From: Desulfovibrio sp.
GTDB lineage: Bacteria; Desulfobacterota; Desulfovibrionia; Desulfovibrionales; Desulfovibrionaceae
Assembly (NCBI GenBank): GCA_031288535.1
Contig: JAITRF010000057.1
Location: forward strand, 1-51,284
Length of the DNA: 51,284 nucleotides
Direction of reading: 5' to 3'
Shown here in pieces: positions 17,330 to 24,949 of the stretch. The notes below the pieces were generated by a model. The model worked only from the letters and a program-made list of their open reading frames with translations, was not told the DNA's origin and made no database searches. The first letter of the stretch is position 1. Every line of letters starts with the position of its first letter. Position numbers and translations under genes: made by a program.

Positions 17330-18847
17330 TTATTTGCTTGGCAGGGCGGCGCCCGCGGCGATTTCCTTGTCCCATATCCCGTGGAAAGCCCGAACGCGCT
17401 CAGCGGGGACTTTTTCGGTGAACAGGCTGATGAAGAAGGTCAGGACAATCTGCACCATCCAGCCCCAGCCGCCCACATGAATGCCGAAGGGGTGGCGCCA
17501 GACGAAATAGCAGAGCAGAATGGCGATAATCCCGCCGATCAGGCCAGCGTTGACTCCGGCCTTGGTGACGCCGGGAAGATATGTCACCCCGAGTATGGGG
17601 ATGAAAAGCAGCAGACCGAAACTGGTGGCCAGTGTGCCCAGCAAAACCAGATAGTCAAGAACAAGCGAACTGAACAGAACTGCCATGCAGACCAGCAGGA
17701 GCACCCCGACCCGGCCGATGAGGACCTGTTTCTTGGGGTGGGCGTCGGGGTTGATATAGCGTGTGTACACGTCGCGCGCCAGAATGGTGGACGTGTTGGC
17801 AAGATAGGCCGCCGCGGTGGAGTTCATGGCCGCAAGAATGCCGAGCGCGGTGATGACAAAGGGAATCGGCGACATGTGCCTGAAGATCAGTTCCAGAGAC
17901 AGGGCGTCGGTATTTTTTAATTCCGGCACTATGGAGCGCCCGCCTATGCCGACGCAGGTAGTGAATATATAGTACATGAGGCCCATGATGCCGATCATGA
18001 GGAAGAGCGCCTGAAACTTGAATATCTTCGGGCTTGATGCGGAAAACGACCACATGGTGAAGGAAGGCGAGGTATAGATGCCGAAGGTCGCAAAGGCTAT
18101 GGAGAAGATATACGGCCAACTCCAGCTACTGCCTATGTCAGGCAGGGTGATGTACTTGTCGCCCAGCCCCACAAACCCGGCCTTCCACTGGTAAAAAAAT
18201 CCCTGCTCGGGGGCCATGCCGATCACGACACCGGCTGCGGTAAAGGCCAGCAGAGCCGCTCCTATCATCAGAAGAAAACCTTGCAGGGTGTCGGTTATGG
18301 CCGCCGCTTTAAGTCCGCCAAGGAAAACGTAAAGAATGACCACAACGCCGAGAACCGCTCCGCCGGTTACGGCATCGATTCTGTTGCCGCTGAGGACATT
18401 GAACACATAACCCGCGCCGCGCAGTTGCAGGGCGATGTACGGTATTGAATACAAGCAGGCGATGATGATGACCAGGACGCGGATCAGTTCTCCGCCATAG
18501 TATGTGCCGAACATTTCACCCGGCGTGACAAATTCGAAACGCCGGCCGATGGCCCACTGTCGCCCGAAAATGCAGACCCCGATCAGTCCCATCAGAGGAA
18601 TGTGGGCGAAATGCGCGATATAAGGAAAGCCGTTCAGGTAGGTCATGCCCTGATGGCCCAAGATGAACCAGGCGCTGAACACTGTGGCCATCATAGCCAG
18701 ACTCAGCACCACCGGACCCAGACCACGGCCCGCCAGAAAGAAGTCGGCAGGCTTTTTGACGTCCACTTTGTAGGAGAGAACTCCTATCCCCGCGCAGCCT
18801 ACCCAATATATGGCGGTGACAATGATGAGAAGCCAGAAGGTATCCAT
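17330..18847 (-). CDS. Sodium:solute symporter (SSS family, PanF-like)
   Basis: A 505-residue inner-membrane protein with about 13 hydrophobic helices. Marks of the SSS family: an early GxxSYKV...PADFFLAGRGLGPVVL segment, GHQGMTYLNGFPYIAHF, and ALGILAAMNSTAAAYLANTSTILARDVYTRYINP, the conserved sodium-site region (S-T-A) of helix 8. Family members take up pantothenate, proline, acetate or other small carboxylates with Na+. Being last in an operon with a CoA-transferase and a hydroxyacyl-CoA dehydratase, it probably imports the organic acid they degrade. ATG at 18847 lies 2 bp after the preceding gene. Confidence 0.9.
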   Translation of the reverse strand: MDTFWLLIIVTAIYWVGCAGIGVLSYKVDVKKPADFFLAGRGLGPVVLSLAMMATVFSAWFILGHQGMTYLNGFPYIAHFAHIPLMGLIGVCIFGRQWAIGRRFEFVTPGEMFGTYYGGELIRVLVIIIACLYSIPYIALQLRGAGYVFNVLSGNRIDAVTGGAVLGVVVILYVFLGGLKAAAITDTLQGFLLMIGAALLAFTAAGVVIGMAPEQGFFYQWKAGFVGLGDKYITLPDIGSSWSWPYIFSIAFATFGIYTSPSFTMWSFSASSPKIFKFQALFLMIGIMGLMYYIFTTCVGIGGRSIVPELKNTDALSLELIFRHMSPIPFVITALGILAAMNSTAAAYLANTSTILARDVYTRYINPDAHPKKQVLIGRVGVLLLVCMAVLFSSLVLDYLVLLGTLATSFGLLLFIPILGVTYLPGVTKAGVNAGLIGGIIAILLCYFVWRHPFGIHVGGWGWMVQIVLTFFISLFTEKVPAERVRAFHGIWDKEIAAGAALPSK

Positions 18848-18849
18848 GC

Positions 18850-19113
18850 TTATTCTCCCTGCTTTTCATCTTGAATGGATTTTATATCCGTGGGCACATC
18901 ATGAAAATGCACACAGTAGGCCAGACAACAGGCAAGTCCGATCGCCAGCAGCCAGAAAACGAAAGACCACACGTACAGAGCAGGAAAATACCCGAAGAAT
19001 ACAGGTTGGCTGCCGACTTCAAGACCAGGACCCAGTGAGAAGAAAATCCACACGGCAAAGGCCCATAGCCACCACCTTTCTTTTTTGGGGACACCGGTGA
19101 TCATCATTGTCAT
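18850..19113 (-). CDS. Small membrane protein associated with SSS symporter
   Basis: 87 residues with two helices (WWLWAFAVWIFFSLGPGLEV and YVWSFVFWLLAIGLACCLAY) and charged ends. It starts right after aaggag and ends 2 bp before the symporter start, so the two are coupled. Small two-helix partners directly upstream of SSS symporters are known (YhdT with PanF, YjcH with ActP, DUF3311 proteins); this looks like that type, probably DUF3311-like, but the family was judged by eye. Likely an accessory subunit. Confidence 0.75.
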   Translation of the reverse strand: MTMMITGVPKKERWWLWAFAVWIFFSLGPGLEVGSQPVFFGYFPALYVWSFVFWLLAIGLACCLAYCVHFHDVPTDIKSIQDEKQGE

Positions 19114-19186
19114 AACTCCTTTTTTGCCTTTCAGCAGGTGTTCCGTCGCGCGTTAAACACAGACGGATGGTAGATTCTTAAGATTC

Positions 19187-20761
19187 TTACAGTTTTTGCA
19201 GAAATCCCTCCAGCAATCCCATGGGGTTGTCTGTAAAAATGCGCTCATCCATGACCTTTAACCGGGGGTGTACCTGCGGCCTGAATTCCATGTTTGCCAG
19301 GACGTCTTTCTCCAGGTCCACTCCAGGCGCGATTTCCGCCAGCACAAGGCCGGAAGGGCCTGGGGTGAACACCGCCCGCTCCGTCACAAAATACACCTCC
19401 AGGTTGTTTTCTCTGGCAAAGGCCGCAGAAAAGGTGACTTGGCCGACCTTTTTGATAAATTTTTTTACTTTGCCCTCCTGCTCAATGATCAATCTGCCCT
19501 CCCCGATCCGGCATTTAAGTCCGGAGGCCGTGAAGGTTCCGGTGAAGATGATTTTTTTCGAAGACTGGGTGATATTGATGAAACCGCCGGCTCCGGCCAC
19601 ACGCGGCCCGAACTTGCTGACGTTCAGGTTGCCCTGCTCGTCCACTTCCGCAAGTCCGAGAACGGTCATATCCAGGCCGCCTCCGTTGTAGAAGTCGAAC
19701 TGATCCGAATGGTTCATAAAGGATTCGGGATTTATGGTGGACCCGAAACGCAGGCCGCTTTGCGCGATGCCTCCGATAGCGCCGGATTCCACAGTACCGG
19801 TCAGATACTCCGTCAGTCCCTCTTCCGAGGCGATGGCCCCTACGCCTTCGGGGATGCCGATACCCAGGTTTATGACGGTGTCGGGCAGTAGTTCCAAGGC
19901 GGCGCGACGGCATATGACCTTTCTCTCGTCCAGGGGTATGGGTGAAATCGCGCTGACCGGTATACGGGCCTGGGCGCTCAGCCAAGGCTCGTACACGGTC
20001 GCCGCCGTCTGTTGATGCTCCTCCGGACTTTCGGCGACGACGATATAGTCCACCAACATGCCGGGCACAAAGACGTCTTTGGCCGGCAGGCTTCCCGCCG
20101 CGCACAGTGTCTCAACCTGGGCGATGACGATGCCGCCGCAAGCCTTGGCCGCCATGGCGGCCTGCAGGTGCTCAAGGCGCATGGCTTCTCTGCCCCAGGT
20201 GATGTTTCCCTTTTCATCTCCCAGCGTGCCCCTGATGATGGCGACATTGACGTGTTGCGGCTTGTACCAGAGGTATTCCTTGCCGCCTAACGATACGAGC
20301 TCGACAAGGTCCTCCGTGGTTATGGAGTTGAGTTTGCCGCCTTCGAGTCTCGGGTCGGCAAAAGTTTGCAGGCCAATGTGGGTGACCAGCCCCGGCTGTT
20401 TGCCGCCTATGGCCCGGATCAGGTGGATAACCGCCCCCTGCGGGAAGTTGTAAGCCTCCACCTTGTTTTCGATGATCAGGGCGGCCATGTCTTTTTGCAG
20501 ATTCAGGTGGCCGCCGATGATGCGTTTGATGAGTCCCGGCTTGCACCAGCGGTTGAGGCCGGTATTATTGGTAGGATTGGATTGCGAAGCCCCGAAGAGC
20601 AAGGTGACGTCTTTGGGCTCGCCGGTTTCCAGAAAGCGTTTTTCCACGGCTTTGGAAACGGCGTCCGCATGTCCTGCCAGCATGAAGCCGACTGTTGTGA
20701 CGGTATCACCGTTGTTGATGAGCCGCGCTGCCTGTTCCGCAGAAATATGCTTGCTTTTCAA
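19187..20761 (-). CDS. Propionate/acetate-type CoA-transferase (family I)
   Basis: 524 residues, a fusion of alpha and beta halves as in propionate CoA-transferase and YdiF. The N-terminal half has the glycine-rich IKRIIGGHLNL region. The C-terminal half carries NLGIGIPEGVGAIASEEG, and the catalytic glutamate in TVESGAIGG, which forms the glutamyl-CoA thioester. The start is TTG at 20761, with caggag six bases upstream; no better ATG is present before the fold begins at KHISAEQAARLI. Next to a 4-hydroxybutyryl-CoA dehydratase it would move CoA from acetyl-CoA (or similar) onto 4-hydroxybutyrate or a related acid. The acceptor is inferred from context. Confidence 0.85.
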   Translation of the reverse strand: MKSKHISAEQAARLINNGDTVTTVGFMLAGHADAVSKAVEKRFLETGEPKDVTLLFGASQSNPTNNTGLNRWCKPGLIKRIIGGHLNLQKDMAALIIENKVEAYNFPQGAVIHLIRAIGGKQPGLVTHIGLQTFADPRLEGGKLNSITTEDLVELVSLGGKEYLWYKPQHVNVAIIRGTLGDEKGNITWGREAMRLEHLQAAMAAKACGGIVIAQVETLCAAGSLPAKDVFVPGMLVDYIVVAESPEEHQQTAATVYEPWLSAQARIPVSAISPIPLDERKVICRRAALELLPDTVINLGIGIPEGVGAIASEEGLTEYLTGTVESGAIGGIAQSGLRFGSTINPESFMNHSDQFDFYNGGGLDMTVLGLAEVDEQGNLNVSKFGPRVAGAGGFINITQSSKKIIFTGTFTASGLKCRIGEGRLIIEQEGKVKKFIKKVGQVTFSAAFARENNLEVYFVTERAVFTPGPSGLVLAEIAPGVDLEKDVLANMEFRPQVHPRLKVMDERIFTDNPMGLLEGFLQKL

Positions 20762-20786
20762 AACCTGCTCCTGTGGTTTCAGTTAT

Positions 20787-20818
20787 GTTGCGCTGTTGCA
20801 TATGGCATTCAGCGCAAC
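20787..20818 (-). other. Hairpin inside the operon between dehydratase and CoA-transferase
   Basis: GTTGCGCTG (20787-20795) pairs perfectly with CAGCGCAAC (20810-20818). A second stem, ACCGGGCGA (20911-20919) with TCGCCCGGT (20939-20947), follows the dehydratase stop. The 196-bp gap holds no gene. No T run follows either, so these may protect or process the mRNA rather than end it. Confidence 0.4.
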
Positions 20819-20957
20819 GGCAGTACGCTACGAATGTTCAAAGCTTACGCGGTGTCTACGGCGTCCGGCGGAGAAGCAGCATACGTTGCGTCCGCTTGAT
20901 TTGGGGACAGACCGGGCGAAGCGAAATGGAGGGAGGCGTCGCCCGGTTCAGCCCGAG

Positions 20958-22424
20958 TTATTTCTTTTTGCCGGTATCGGGCAGGTTTTTGACGCCTGCG
21001 AGTGCGGCAGCTGCGATTTTTTTGGCCTGTATGTTGGCGAGGCGCGGATAGGTAATTTTCTGAGCCTGAGGGGAACCTGCGCCGTGCATGGCCTCGACGA
21101 GAGCGGTACCGCCGGTCATGTTTTCGACGAGTCTGACCATGCGCAGGCGGTCTTCTGTGGGGACGGACTGAACGCCGCGCAGGTATTTGTCGACGTATTT
21201 TCCGATTTCCGGGCTTTTGAGGTCTGATTCGGAAGGAGTGGTGGCGAGGATTCCGCCGCCTATATCCTGAGCGAGGCGGTCGATTTCATAGATGAGGCTG
21301 GTGACGTTGTGTTTTCCGACGTTTGCGAGCAGAGGGTCGACATAGTAGTTGCCTGCGGCGGTGGGACGTCCTTCGCTGGAGCAGGCGATGGAACAGCAGT
21401 AGAGTGTTTCGGTGAGGTGAACCATCTGGCTGATTTTTTCCTTGACGTGGGAGGCGTTTCCGTAGCCGCTCATGTCGGCCAGATTTGCGGCGGCGCCGAT
21501 GACGATGTCGGAGACGCCGCCTTTACATCCGCCATAGTTTTGGCGGTGATAGCTGGCGAAGCGTTCGACCAGCATGCCTGCGAACTGGTATTCGCCGCAC
21601 ATGAACACCTTGTCCCAGGGCACGAAGACGTCATCAAGGACGGTCAGGGCCTCTCCGCCGACGATGGCGAACTTGGCGTTGCCCTGGTCTATCTCGCCTT
21701 CTTCCTTGCGCCCGTCGTTGGTCTGTCGACCGAAGATATGGATGATGTTCGGGGCATCGACGGGGACGGCGCAGCAGACGGCATAATCTTTGTCGGCTTC
21801 GCCAAGGCCCATGGTGGGCATGAGGATCATCCAGTGGGAGTTGATCATGCCTGTCATGTGCATTTTTGCGCCGCGCACGGTAATGCCTTTGTCGTCCTGT
21901 TTGACGACGTGCAGGAACATGTCGGGGTCAGGCTGTTTGCTTGGTCCGAAATTGCGGTCGCCTTTGGGGTCGGTCATGGCGCCTGCGACCATCCAGTCGT
22001 TTTCCTGGACCTGGAGGATGAAATCTTTCAGTTTTTCGTGGGATTTTGTGCCGAGGGCCTTGTCCATTTCGAAGGTAGTACTGTAGAGGGCGTTCATGGC
22101 GTCGAAGCCGACGCAACGCTGATAACAGGAACCGGTTTTAAGGGAGATCATGCGGAGCATTTTGACTTTTTTTACGAGGTCTTCGACGCTATGGTGGATG
22201 TGAGTGAAGCGATTGATTTTTTTTCCGGTGAGGTGGGATTTGGTGGTCATGAGGTCTTCAGCGGCGGGGTCGTGAGCGAGGTCATAGGTCATGGCCGCGG
22301 CGTTGAAGTGGCCTGCCAGGTAGGGGTGCTCGGATAGGGTCTTGGGATCGAGCAGCTTGCCCTTCAAGTAGACTTTGATGTTTCTGTTACGCAGGCTTTC
22401 GATGTACTGCTTGCCGGTCATCAT
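20958..22424 (-). CDS. abfD: 4-hydroxybutyryl-CoA dehydratase / vinylacetyl-CoA isomerase
   Basis: A 488-residue FAD and [4Fe-4S] enzyme of the HpaB-related family that dehydrates 4-hydroxybutyryl-CoA to crotonyl-CoA through a ketyl radical. The Clostridium aminobutyricum cluster ligands Cys99, Cys103, His292 and Cys299 correspond, with an offset of one, to Cys100, Cys104 (GSCYQRCVGF), His293 and Cys300 (YHRQNYGGCKGG) here; Lys301 follows as expected. Non-dehydratase relatives such as 4-hydroxyphenylacetate hydroxylase lack these cysteines. Length matches the characterised enzymes. ATG at 22424 follows aggaggg. First gene of a minus-strand operon with CoA-transferase, small membrane protein and symporter. 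The enzyme is oxygen sensitive, fitting an anaerobe. Confidence 0.93.
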   Translation of the reverse strand: MMTGKQYIESLRNRNIKVYLKGKLLDPKTLSEHPYLAGHFNAAAMTYDLAHDPAAEDLMTTKSHLTGKKINRFTHIHHSVEDLVKKVKMLRMISLKTGSCYQRCVGFDAMNALYSTTFEMDKALGTKSHEKLKDFILQVQENDWMVAGAMTDPKGDRNFGPSKQPDPDMFLHVVKQDDKGITVRGAKMHMTGMINSHWMILMPTMGLGEADKDYAVCCAVPVDAPNIIHIFGRQTNDGRKEEGEIDQGNAKFAIVGGEALTVLDDVFVPWDKVFMCGEYQFAGMLVERFASYHRQNYGGCKGGVSDIVIGAAANLADMSGYGNASHVKEKISQMVHLTETLYCCSIACSSEGRPTAAGNYYVDPLLANVGKHNVTSLIYEIDRLAQDIGGGILATTPSESDLKSPEIGKYVDKYLRGVQSVPTEDRLRMVRLVENMTGGTALVEAMHGAGSPQAQKITYPRLANIQAKKIAAAALAGVKNLPDTGKKK

Positions 22425-22582
22425 GGAAATTCCCTCCTTGGGGTAAAGGCTGGGTTGACGTTAAACCGCTCTCACACTGTACCGGGAGCCGATTAAAAGC
22501 GGGACCGGTTCTGAAAAACCCGGCACGTCACCGGGGCGTGGCTATGCGCACAAAGCGCGGATTGCTGTTCGGAACTGTTAAG

Positions 22583-22598
22583 GCAAAAAGTGTTCCAA
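22583..22598 (-). promoter_or_regulatory. Candidate sigma-54 promoter of the abfD operon
   Basis: On the minus strand TTGGAACACTTTTTGC has the -24 GG (22596-22595) and -12 GC (22584-22583) ten bases apart. It differs from the TGGCACG-N4-TTGC consensus at two positions. It lies about 150 bp upstream of the abfD start and downstream of the activator gene. Confidence 0.5.
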
Positions 22599-22780
22599 GC
22601 GTTACGCGCCAAGCGCTACAGAAGACAGGAAGCGGCGGATGTGACCCCGTTGCCCGGAGAGGAAAAGAAAGGAGGGCGTAAAGACAAGCCAGAACGGCGG
22701 CGCGAGAAATTTTTCGGTATCTTTTATTACCGGCTCAAGATTGAGAAAATTTTTTCTCAAATAAAAACACGGGAGTGATT

Positions 22781-22819
22781 CGGTAATTTTTATTGCCGAT
22801 TGGTAATTAAAATTACCGG
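22781..22819. promoter_or_regulatory. Two tandem palindromes, candidate enhancer site
   Basis: CGGTAATTTTTATTGCCG (22781-22798) and GGTAATTAAAATTACC (22802-22817) are related palindromes with centres 20 bp apart, i.e. two helical turns on one face. They lie about 200 bp upstream of the candidate sigma-54 promoter, just past the activator gene's stop. A further perfect palindrome, TTGAGAAAATTTTTTCTCAA, is at 22741-22760. Binding by the adjacent regulator is inferred. Confidence 0.55.
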
Positions 22820-22835
22820 AGGATAGGGCGGGACA

Positions 22836-24506
22836 TCAGGCTTGGTCTACAGCGCTCTCGTCCACGTAGCGCCTGATTTTTTTCAGAACGGTCACATGGG
22901 TGACGTCAAGCGCCTTGGCTGCCTGACGGATGGAAGGATGGTTTTCCCGCACGCGTTTCCAGAAGGATCGCTCAAAGTTTTCTCTGGCTTGGGTATAGCT
23001 AATTCCGTTGTATTCATCAATGTTTCCGTCTTCAGGCACCTCTCGTCCCGAAGTGTGCAGAATTTCCATCGGCAGTTGGGAGGGAGCGATAACCGGATCG
23101 TCGCTTGTGATTACAAGCCGTTCAACCAGATGCTCCAGTTCCCTGACGTTCCCCGGCCAGGAATAGTTCAGGAAATATTTGAACAGGTCCTGGTGGAAGG
23201 TCTTTTTCTGTTTGTAGCGGCGGTTGTATTTTTCCAGAAAAAACTGCATCAGCGGCAGAATGTCCTCCTCGCGTTCGCGCAGGGGCGGAATGACGATGCA
23301 GAGCACTTTCAGGCGGTAAAGCAAATCGGCGCGGAAATCCTTGCTTCCAGACAACGCCTCGAGGCTGCGGTTGGTCGCGGCCAAAAGGCGCACGTCCACC
23401 TTGGTAGGCCGCTCGTCTCCTATTTTGTAGAATTCCTGGCTTTCCACAAAGCGCAAAAGTTTGGCCTGCAACTGGAGCGGCAGTTCCCCTATCTCGTCCA
23501 AAAGGGCGATGCCCTTGTTCGCCATTTCAAAAAGGCCGGTTTTACCCTGACGGCTGGCGCCGGTGAAGGCCCCGGCCTTGTAGCCGAACAACTCGGCTTC
23601 CAGCAGATGTTCGGGTATGGCGGCGCAGTTGATTTTCAAAAAGGGCTCTTTGGCTCGCGGGCTTTTGCGGTGTATGAAATCCGCCAGCACCTCCTTGCCG
23701 GTGCCTGTATCGCCCATCAGCAGCACCGGGGCGTCGGTCCTGGAAAAACGCAGGGCGTTGTTGCGGACTTCGCGCATGGCGACGCTGCGGAAAACCGCGC
23801 TCTCCTTTTCCTGGGCAAGGGCTTTGATCAGTTGCGAGTAGCGGTTCAGGCGCGCTTGCGATTTGGACAGCTTGATCCGCATGTTGTGAAGTTCGGTCGT
23901 GTCCCGGACATTGGTCACCACCCGGAATATATTTCCCTTCTCATCGTACAGGGGATTGGCCGTAATGTAGCTGTGTCTTTGCGAGCGGAGGAAGGTCTGA
24001 TCCAGCGAGGCCGGTTTGCCTGTCAGCAGCACCTGTTCCGTGGCGCTTTGGGAGAGCATGCCAAGGGCGACAAGTTCGGCCCCGGAGCGTCCGAGTATGT
24101 CTTCGCGTTTCAATCCGCTGATGCGTTCATAGTTTGCGTTCACCCTGTGATAGATGCCGTTTTCGTTGGCGACGACGATGCCGTCGCGCGAGGTTTCAAA
24201 AATTTCTTCCAGCTCCCGGCATTTTTTCTTCAGTTCGACGATGCACCGGTGCTCGATCTCCGTCGTCTGCCAGTGGTATATCGCCACTATGCCCCTGAAC
24301 GCCTTTTGCCGGATGCGCTCGATCTCCAGCGAGCCGCAGGCTACCCGCTCGCAACGCATCGAGTCTTCATTGCGGTTGACAAAATTCTCTATACTTTTCA
24401 GAATATCCGGCAGCTTGCCGTCTATATTCCGGTTATGCGACACGTGGATGAGTTTGCCTTGGCAGGTACATATCAAAAAGGCGCTTGCGGTGCTGGCGTT
24501 TTTCAT
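22836..24506 (-). CDS. PAS-containing sigma-54-dependent activator
   Basis: 556 residues from the ATG at 24506 (ggaggagca upstream; longer starts give no coherent protein). N-terminal region of about 110 residues with no known fold but three cysteines, then a PAS domain (LEEIFETSRDGIVVANENGI onward), a linker coil, an AAA+ domain with Walker A GDTGTGKE, the sigma-54 loop GAFTGA and Walker B ALLDEIGE, and a Fis-type HTH at the end (SIRQAAKALDVTHVTVLKKI). No receiver domain, so the signal is probably a ligand or redox cue sensed by PAS. It is transcribed toward abfD and probably activates that operon. Confidence 0.9.
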   Translation of the reverse strand: MKNASTASAFLICTCQGKLIHVSHNRNIDGKLPDILKSIENFVNRNEDSMRCERVACGSLEIERIRQKAFRGIVAIYHWQTTEIEHRCIVELKKKCRELEEIFETSRDGIVVANENGIYHRVNANYERISGLKREDILGRSGAELVALGMLSQSATEQVLLTGKPASLDQTFLRSQRHSYITANPLYDEKGNIFRVVTNVRDTTELHNMRIKLSKSQARLNRYSQLIKALAQEKESAVFRSVAMREVRNNALRFSRTDAPVLLMGDTGTGKEVLADFIHRKSPRAKEPFLKINCAAIPEHLLEAELFGYKAGAFTGASRQGKTGLFEMANKGIALLDEIGELPLQLQAKLLRFVESQEFYKIGDERPTKVDVRLLAATNRSLEALSGSKDFRADLLYRLKVLCIVIPPLREREEDILPLMQFFLEKYNRRYKQKKTFHQDLFKYFLNYSWPGNVRELEHLVERLVITSDDPVIAPSQLPMEILHTSGREVPEDGNIDEYNGISYTQARENFERSFWKRVRENHPSIRQAAKALDVTHVTVLKKIRRYVDESAVDQA

Positions 24507-24637: not shown

Positions 24638-24949
24638 ATGAACAAGACCATAGGCATCAAATACTGCGGGCATTGCCAACCTTTCATGCAGATGCCGGAA
24701 TTTGTGAAAAACCTTGAGGAGAAAGTCCCTGAGATCAGATTTGTACAGTGGGACAGCGGGGAGAATTTTTCCCGCCTGCTTTTGCTTTGCGCTTGCCCGG
24801 TGGCCTGCGTGCGTGAATCCGGCTTCGCAGGGCCGACAACGGTAATAAGCTGCAACTCGATTGATTTCATGGAATATGAAACGACGGACGCCCTGCTGGC
24901 TGCCGCCGCCGCGCTTCTGGAGCATGGTACGCTTGAGATTGTCGCTTGA
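24638..24949 (+). CDS. Small cysteine-rich protein, thioredoxin-like start, unknown function
   Basis: 103 residues from ATG 24638 (weak upstream RBS). It starts MNKTIGIKYCGHCQPFM, a strand followed by CxxC as in thioredoxin-like folds, then FVQWDSGENF, LLLLCACPVACV (three further cysteines) and a SCN motif. It lies divergent from the sigma-54 activator, 131 bp apart, so it may belong to the same regulon. The last residues (TLEIVA) and the stop codon are read from a family A repeat, so the native C-terminus may have been replaced. Function not recognised. Confidence 0.6.
   Translation: MNKTIGIKYCGHCQPFMQMPEFVKNLEEKVPEIRFVQWDSGENFSRLLLLCACPVACVRESGFAGPTTVISCNSIDFMEYETTDALLAAAAALLEHGTLEIVA

Follow-up and report, generated by a model that had tools for sequence, protein, structure and literature searches.

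The closest described counterparts of the locus reported here belong to the abfD/abfT pathway of Clostridium aminobutyricum, C. kluyveri and C. homopropionicum, in which coenzyme A (CoA) transfer is followed by dehydration to crotonyl-CoA by AbfD, a textbook radical dehydratase. We found only two solved AbfD enzymes, both from one clade. The abfD and abfT genes are both present in C. homopropionicum, which can grow on 4-hydroxybutyrate (PMC4591306). In the Fusobacteriaceae Cetobacterium somerae and Fusobacterium vincentii, a dehydratase, a CoA-transferase and a transporter follow an upstream sigma-54 activator in one run of genes, and an annotated 4-hydroxybutyrate dehydrogenase is also present in Cetobacterium. 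Since sigma-54 control was predicted earlier for this protein class (COG2368) in Clostridia (PMC12316311), such control of AbfD-type enzymes is not new in itself. Here we describe a module of this plan from Desulfovibrio sp. (assembly GCA_031288535.1), carried on the 51,284-nucleotide contig JAITRF010000057.1 (contig C131, hereafter the window) of a genome assembled as 153 contigs totaling 2.83 Mb. The nearest relatives of this genome are Desulfovibrionaceae metagenome genomes, whose isolate codes suggest a termite-gut origin.

Results

The minus-strand operon (17330–22424) encodes, in order, an AbfD-type [4Fe-4S]/flavin adenine dinucleotide (FAD) dehydratase (488 amino acids; 20958–22424), a fused family I CoA-transferase (524 amino acids; 19187–20761), a small membrane-type protein (87 amino acids; 18850–19113) and a Na+/solute symporter of the SSS family (505 amino acids; 17330–18847), with intergenic gaps of 196, 73 and 2 bases. 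Upstream on the same strand is the gene for a sigma-54 activator (556 amino acids; 24506–22836). A preliminary description had placed these five genes at the same coordinates, and its view of a single operon containing CoA-transferase, dehydratase with all Fe-S ligands, symporter and small partner is borne out by family scans and by the residues. It had overlooked a gene divergent from that of the activator (24638–24949, plus strand), which encodes a 103-amino-acid protein with four conserved cysteines (CGxC ... CxxxC), here called the four-Cys protein. The module is real; its plan is ordinary and its parts are variants. Whereas the dehydratase retains all the ligands and catalytic residues of AbfD, it lies outside the characterized clade and carries a deletion, the transferase is from another family than AbfT, and the operon has its own symporter and sigma-54 circuit. 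The Fusobacteriaceae loci differ in having an undeleted AbfD (in Cetobacterium), an AbfT-like transferase and other transporter types.

By sequence, the dehydratase is of the AbfD type and falls outside the clade of characterized 4-hydroxybutyryl-CoA dehydratases. It matches C. aminobutyricum AbfD (PDB 1U8V) over its full length (phmmer E=2.8e-169) and the Nitrosopumilus maritimus 4-hydroxybutyryl-CoA dehydratase (6VJR) at E=9.1e-160, and its predicted model fits the 1U8V fold (template modeling score 0.87), making 1U8V the top match in both sequence and fold. All [4Fe-4S] ligands are kept (C100, C104, H293 and C300, equivalent to C99, C103, H292 and C299 of 1U8V), as are E258, Y297, K301 and E444, the counterparts of the catalytic residues E257, Y296, K300 and E455 of AbfD. 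Next to the catalytic Glu455, four residues are missing: VGYRTE of AbfD becomes V----E. The VGYxTE segment ending in this glutamate is shortened in 20 of 20 rows of what we call the deletion group, which also shares a second mark, the replacement of Ser295 by Asn. Deletion-group members occur in Papillibacter, Eubacterium callanderi, Oscillibacter, Desulfallas, Desulfotruncus, Peptococcaceae and some deltaproteobacterial genomes. In a tree built by a quick method with the deletion columns kept in the alignment, a 17-row undeleted group (Shimodaira-Hasegawa-like approximate likelihood ratio support 99) holds both solved enzymes, and the window dehydratase and all 20 deletion rows lie outside it; the deletion requires two changes on this tree, and a single change is also compatible. 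The monomer model offers no explanation for the deletion, as residues 439–462 have a predicted local distance difference test score (pLDDT) below 50.

The CoA-transferase belongs by its sequence to the YdiF/FadX/propionate-CoA-transferase kind, with which it shares full-length homology and the catalytic glutamate motif. It aligns over its full length with YdiF (PDB 2AHU; E=1e-124), scores 431 bits against the NCBIfam FadX model (cut-off 750), and contains VESGAIGG, a motif of the ESG-IGG type with the probable catalytic Glu325. An AbfT identity was rejected: there was no match to 3GK7 or PF13336, and YdiF was best. We know of no member of the YdiF family with proven physiological use of 4-hydroxybutyrate, a point on which no dedicated search was made. 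A 50% identical relative is found in the Papillibacter locus. Elsewhere in the same genome, contig C135 (L007, 1187–5734) carries a major facilitator superfamily transporter, a YdiF-kind CoA-transferase 62% identical to that of the window, and a degenerate HpaB-family protein, the fourth of the genome, lacking the His, Tyr, Lys and Glu residues of AbfD, a set that reads as a module parallel to the window operon. A further parallel module, in genome G107 (contig C100; L034, 2728–9443), combines a sigma-54 regulator, an AbfT-like transferase, a divergent HpaB-family protein and a permease.

The symporter matches Pfam SSF (PF00474; E=2.8e-24). Its small membrane partner, which matched no Pfam or NCBIfam family, is paired with a symporter also in L029/L042, L043 and L051.

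The preliminary description had also proposed that a PAS/AAA+ sigma-54 activator lies upstream of the operon, and each expected part was found. The activator, which starts at 24506 behind GGAGGAG, combines PAS, sigma-54 AAA+ and Fis-type helix-turn-helix domains (PF08448, PF00158, PF25601 and PF18024) and carries a GAFTGA motif. It is not PrdR, the proline reductase activator, since it scores 363 bits against an NCBIfam cut-off of 795. The 411 bp between the activator and dehydratase genes contain three candidate activator palindromes of the form GGTAATN4ATTACC and a predicted −24/−12 promoter, TGGAACACTTTTTGCC (22582–22597, minus strand). The palindromes span 22716–22817, the copy at 22716–22731 having two mismatches, that at 22782–22797 one, and that at 22802–22817 none; four matches occur in the window, compared with 0.8 expected. 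Palindromes and promoter recur in two relatives, L042 and L043, and in this comparison the nearest palindrome is 134–146 bp from the promoter. A −24/−12 match alone is not significant across the window (23 found, 27.6 expected), so it is only position and recurrence in relatives that make this promoter credible. As the genome encodes one RpoN, the parts of a sigma-54 circuit appear complete: a GAFTGA-bearing AAA+ domain, helix-turn-helix, candidate upstream sites, predicted promoter and RpoN.

The genome, whose contigs were read with a codon-usage caller, has four HpaB-family genes, including two classical AbfDs (C84 and C96) that coexist with the window dehydratase. C84 (L005) carries one of these, likewise behind a consensus sigma-54 promoter (TGGCACCGACTTTGCA), together with the first part of a gene for CoA-acylating succinate-semialdehyde dehydrogenase; its end overlaps that of C51 (L080) by an exact 117 bp, and C51 carries the remainder of this gene, succinyl-CoA synthetase, a sigma-54 regulator and AbfT. 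The joined region reads fumarate reductase, fumarase, AbfD, succinate-semialdehyde dehydrogenase, SucCD, sigma-54 regulator and AbfT, genes without a library scan having been named by eye. A further AbfT-kind gene lies on C44. The second classical AbfD, on C96, is accompanied by a four-Cys gene and enoyl-CoA hydratase, and C91 carries 3-hydroxybutyryl-CoA dehydrogenase (456 bits, cut-off 408) with a thiolase. Since hydratase, dehydrogenase and thiolase are all encoded, crotonyl-CoA could be converted to acetyl-CoA, in agreement with the earlier expectation of beta-oxidation enzymes elsewhere in the genome. Of the further enzymes suggested for a genome search, the crotonase-type hydratase and 3-hydroxybutyryl-CoA dehydrogenase are thus present; 4-hydroxybutyrate dehydrogenase is only tentatively assigned to an iron-type alcohol dehydrogenase on C137, as no NCBIfam model reaches its cut-off there. 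Because the genome holds the classical pathway too, the window operon does not create 4-hydroxybutyrate metabolism but is an addition to it.

Matches to the window dehydratase occur in 10 of 119 sampled Desulfovibrionaceae genomes, representing 4 of 44 genera. The suggestion that the pathway is unusual for this family is therefore roughly right as to distribution, although this genome does not owe the pathway to the window operon. Genome G095, of the same genus, has only dehydratase fragments about 90% identical to the window's (on C200 and C105; L031 and L066), likely a decayed or broken copy. A plasmid search found only relatives below 60%.

The best clue to substrate is the neighborhood of Peptococcaceae locus L051, where the dehydratase (66% identical to the window's), symporter (66%) and small membrane protein (49–51%) are joined by thiolase, 3-hydroxybutyryl-CoA dehydrogenase and a CoA-transferase that is a true AbfT, matching 3GK7 at E=4.7e-147. 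In L052, L062 and L064, a deletion-group dehydratase adjoins thiolase, 3-hydroxybutyryl-CoA dehydrogenase and enoyl-CoA hydratase. Other neighborhoods, named by eye, contain an acyl-CoA ligase and a short-chain dehydrogenase/reductase (Desulfotruncus) or a 2-oxoacid oxidoreductase and an aminotransferase (Eubacterium and Oscillibacter). In E. callanderi (L045, 6079–16493) and at the start of L064, the dehydratase also adjoins a B12-binding mutase-like protein, and the L045 neighbors, read as 2-oxoacid oxidoreductase, aminotransferase and glutamate dehydrogenase, hint at an amino-acid route.

Within the four-Cys protein (about 100 amino acids), C10, G11, C13, C53 and C57 are invariant over 18 relatives. 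It occurs in 9 of the 119 Desulfovibrionaceae genomes, each of which also has a match to the window dehydratase; the one remaining genome of the 10 with such matches is G095, with dehydratase fragments only. Across the phylum, 66 of 395 genomes encode it, and every one of them has an AbfD-family gene (present in 138 genomes). A high-scoring AbfD occurs in 74 genomes, which include 64 of the 66; Fisher's test, without correction for kinship, gives p=2.7e-60. For 53 of the 72 four-Cys genes a high-scoring AbfD gene is no more than 3 kb away, and 52 of the 53 are on its strand. The protein is therefore tied to AbfD in Desulfobacterota, and it adjoins AbfD in Bacillota, Pseudomonadota and Fusobacteriota; in F. 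vincentii its gene sits, as beside the window operon, with the module, here inside the sigma-54/AbfD/AbfT-like/permease run. Searches of E. callanderi, both Oscillibacter genomes, Dethiobacter, Syntrophus, Jordarchaeum and one Syntrophomonadaceae genome did not find it, so it is not a companion of every AbfD relative. A further family member lies at L006:4314–4574.

No Pfam or NCBIfam family matched the four-Cys protein, and a PDB fold search with its predicted model (pLDDT 85) returned nothing under E=0.001. It resembles the Rdx (SelW/SelT/SelH) proteins in size and in an N-terminal beta strand followed by CxxC, but has a second motif, CxxxC. An Rdx/SelW identity was rejected because its scores (E 0.02–0.2) fall far under the Pfam and NCBIfam cut-offs (13.8 versus 22.6 and 15 versus 34.2 bits). 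In the open-license literature we found no paper on this protein or on such a route in Desulfovibrio.

Discussion

We favor, with some reserve, the reading of the operon as an inducible module that imports and activates a short hydroxy acid, 4-hydroxybutyrate being the most likely one. From the genes, residues, candidate regulatory sites and downstream enzymes read in the DNA, we infer substrate, CoA donor, inducer, site binding and flux as follows. The PAS activator would sense the acid or a linked signal, bind the three palindromes and open the −24/−12 promoter with RpoN. The symporter would import the acid together with Na+, the YdiF-kind transferase would place CoA on it, probably from acetyl-CoA, and the dehydratase would remove water through a radical to yield crotonyl-CoA. 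The sequence thus supports import of the acid, its activation with CoA and its radical dehydration, with a sigma-54 activator of the operon's own in control, much as proposed earlier, and this pathway is the likeliest. Because the transferase is of another kind and the dehydratase lies outside the characterized clade and lacks four residues, the identity of the substrate rests on neighborhood. Support for this reading comes from the neighborhoods in L051, L052, L062 and L064, the retained residues, the C91 and C96 enzymes, the Papillibacter transferase, the Fusobacteriaceae loci, the promoter and palindromes shared with relatives, and the presence of RpoN.

Several observations weigh against 4-hydroxybutyrate. 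The loss of four residues beside Glu455 could change the substrate, both solved 4-hydroxybutyryl-CoA dehydratases sit, on our tree, in the other clade, and the transferase, judged by its matches, is not AbfT, the classical 4-hydroxybutyrate CoA-transferase. Moreover, because a classical set is already present, a second set acting on the same acid would in part duplicate it. It is possible, if not the outcome we expect, that the module handles another acid, such as vinylacetate or a substituted or longer 4-hydroxy acid, with the enzyme acting as an isomerase or as a dehydratase with a reshaped pocket. The group-wide deletion and Ser295Asn change, the position of the enzyme outside the characterized clade, the very varied deletion-group neighborhoods and the coexistence of two classical AbfDs would all fit, but the AbfT, thiolase and 3-hydroxybutyryl-CoA dehydrogenase of L051 and the thiolase, dehydrogenase and hydratase of L052, L062 and L064 indicate a C4 route with acetoacetyl-CoA as its end point. 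It seems improbable that the operon works in the direction of synthesis, or that it is an island acquired by horizontal transfer, now decaying and without a role: patchy distribution in the family and the fragments in G095 favor this reading, but the reading frames are intact, promoter, palindromes and gene order recur in two relatives, and a symporter and activator fit catabolism. Pfam assigns HpaB to both domains of the dehydratase and public records call its relatives "4-hydroxyphenylacetate 3-hydroxylase," yet a misread aromatic hydroxylase is hardly credible and, on sequence grounds, already refuted, since scores against the NCBIfam HpaB models are far under cut-off (151.8 versus 480 and 75 versus 885), the AbfD ligands are present, 1U8V is the top match and the operon includes a CoA-transferase.

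What might the four-Cys protein do? Its cysteines and gene company suggest that it may help to assemble or repair the cluster, or may supply electrons. Since AbfD is active when produced in Escherichia coli without this protein, a strict need for it is argued against. A bolder proposal, which we hold only tentatively and consider rather doubtful as a whole, is that the four-Cys protein is a dedicated and so far undescribed AbfD partner, which inserts or repairs the cluster or reactivates the enzyme with one electron, and that the deletion group is a second functional class of this dehydratase with its own substrate.

The 4-hydroxybutyrate module that we favor marks a second group of AbfD enzymes, with a clean signature beside the active site and an operon ready for expression. 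The deletion-group enzyme and its four-Cys companion merit specialist attention, as the latter makes the assembly of AbfD, or the upkeep of its activity, a directly testable question. For sulfate reducers, the module would represent an added route for C4 hydroxy acids, one not usually credited to Desulfovibrionaceae.

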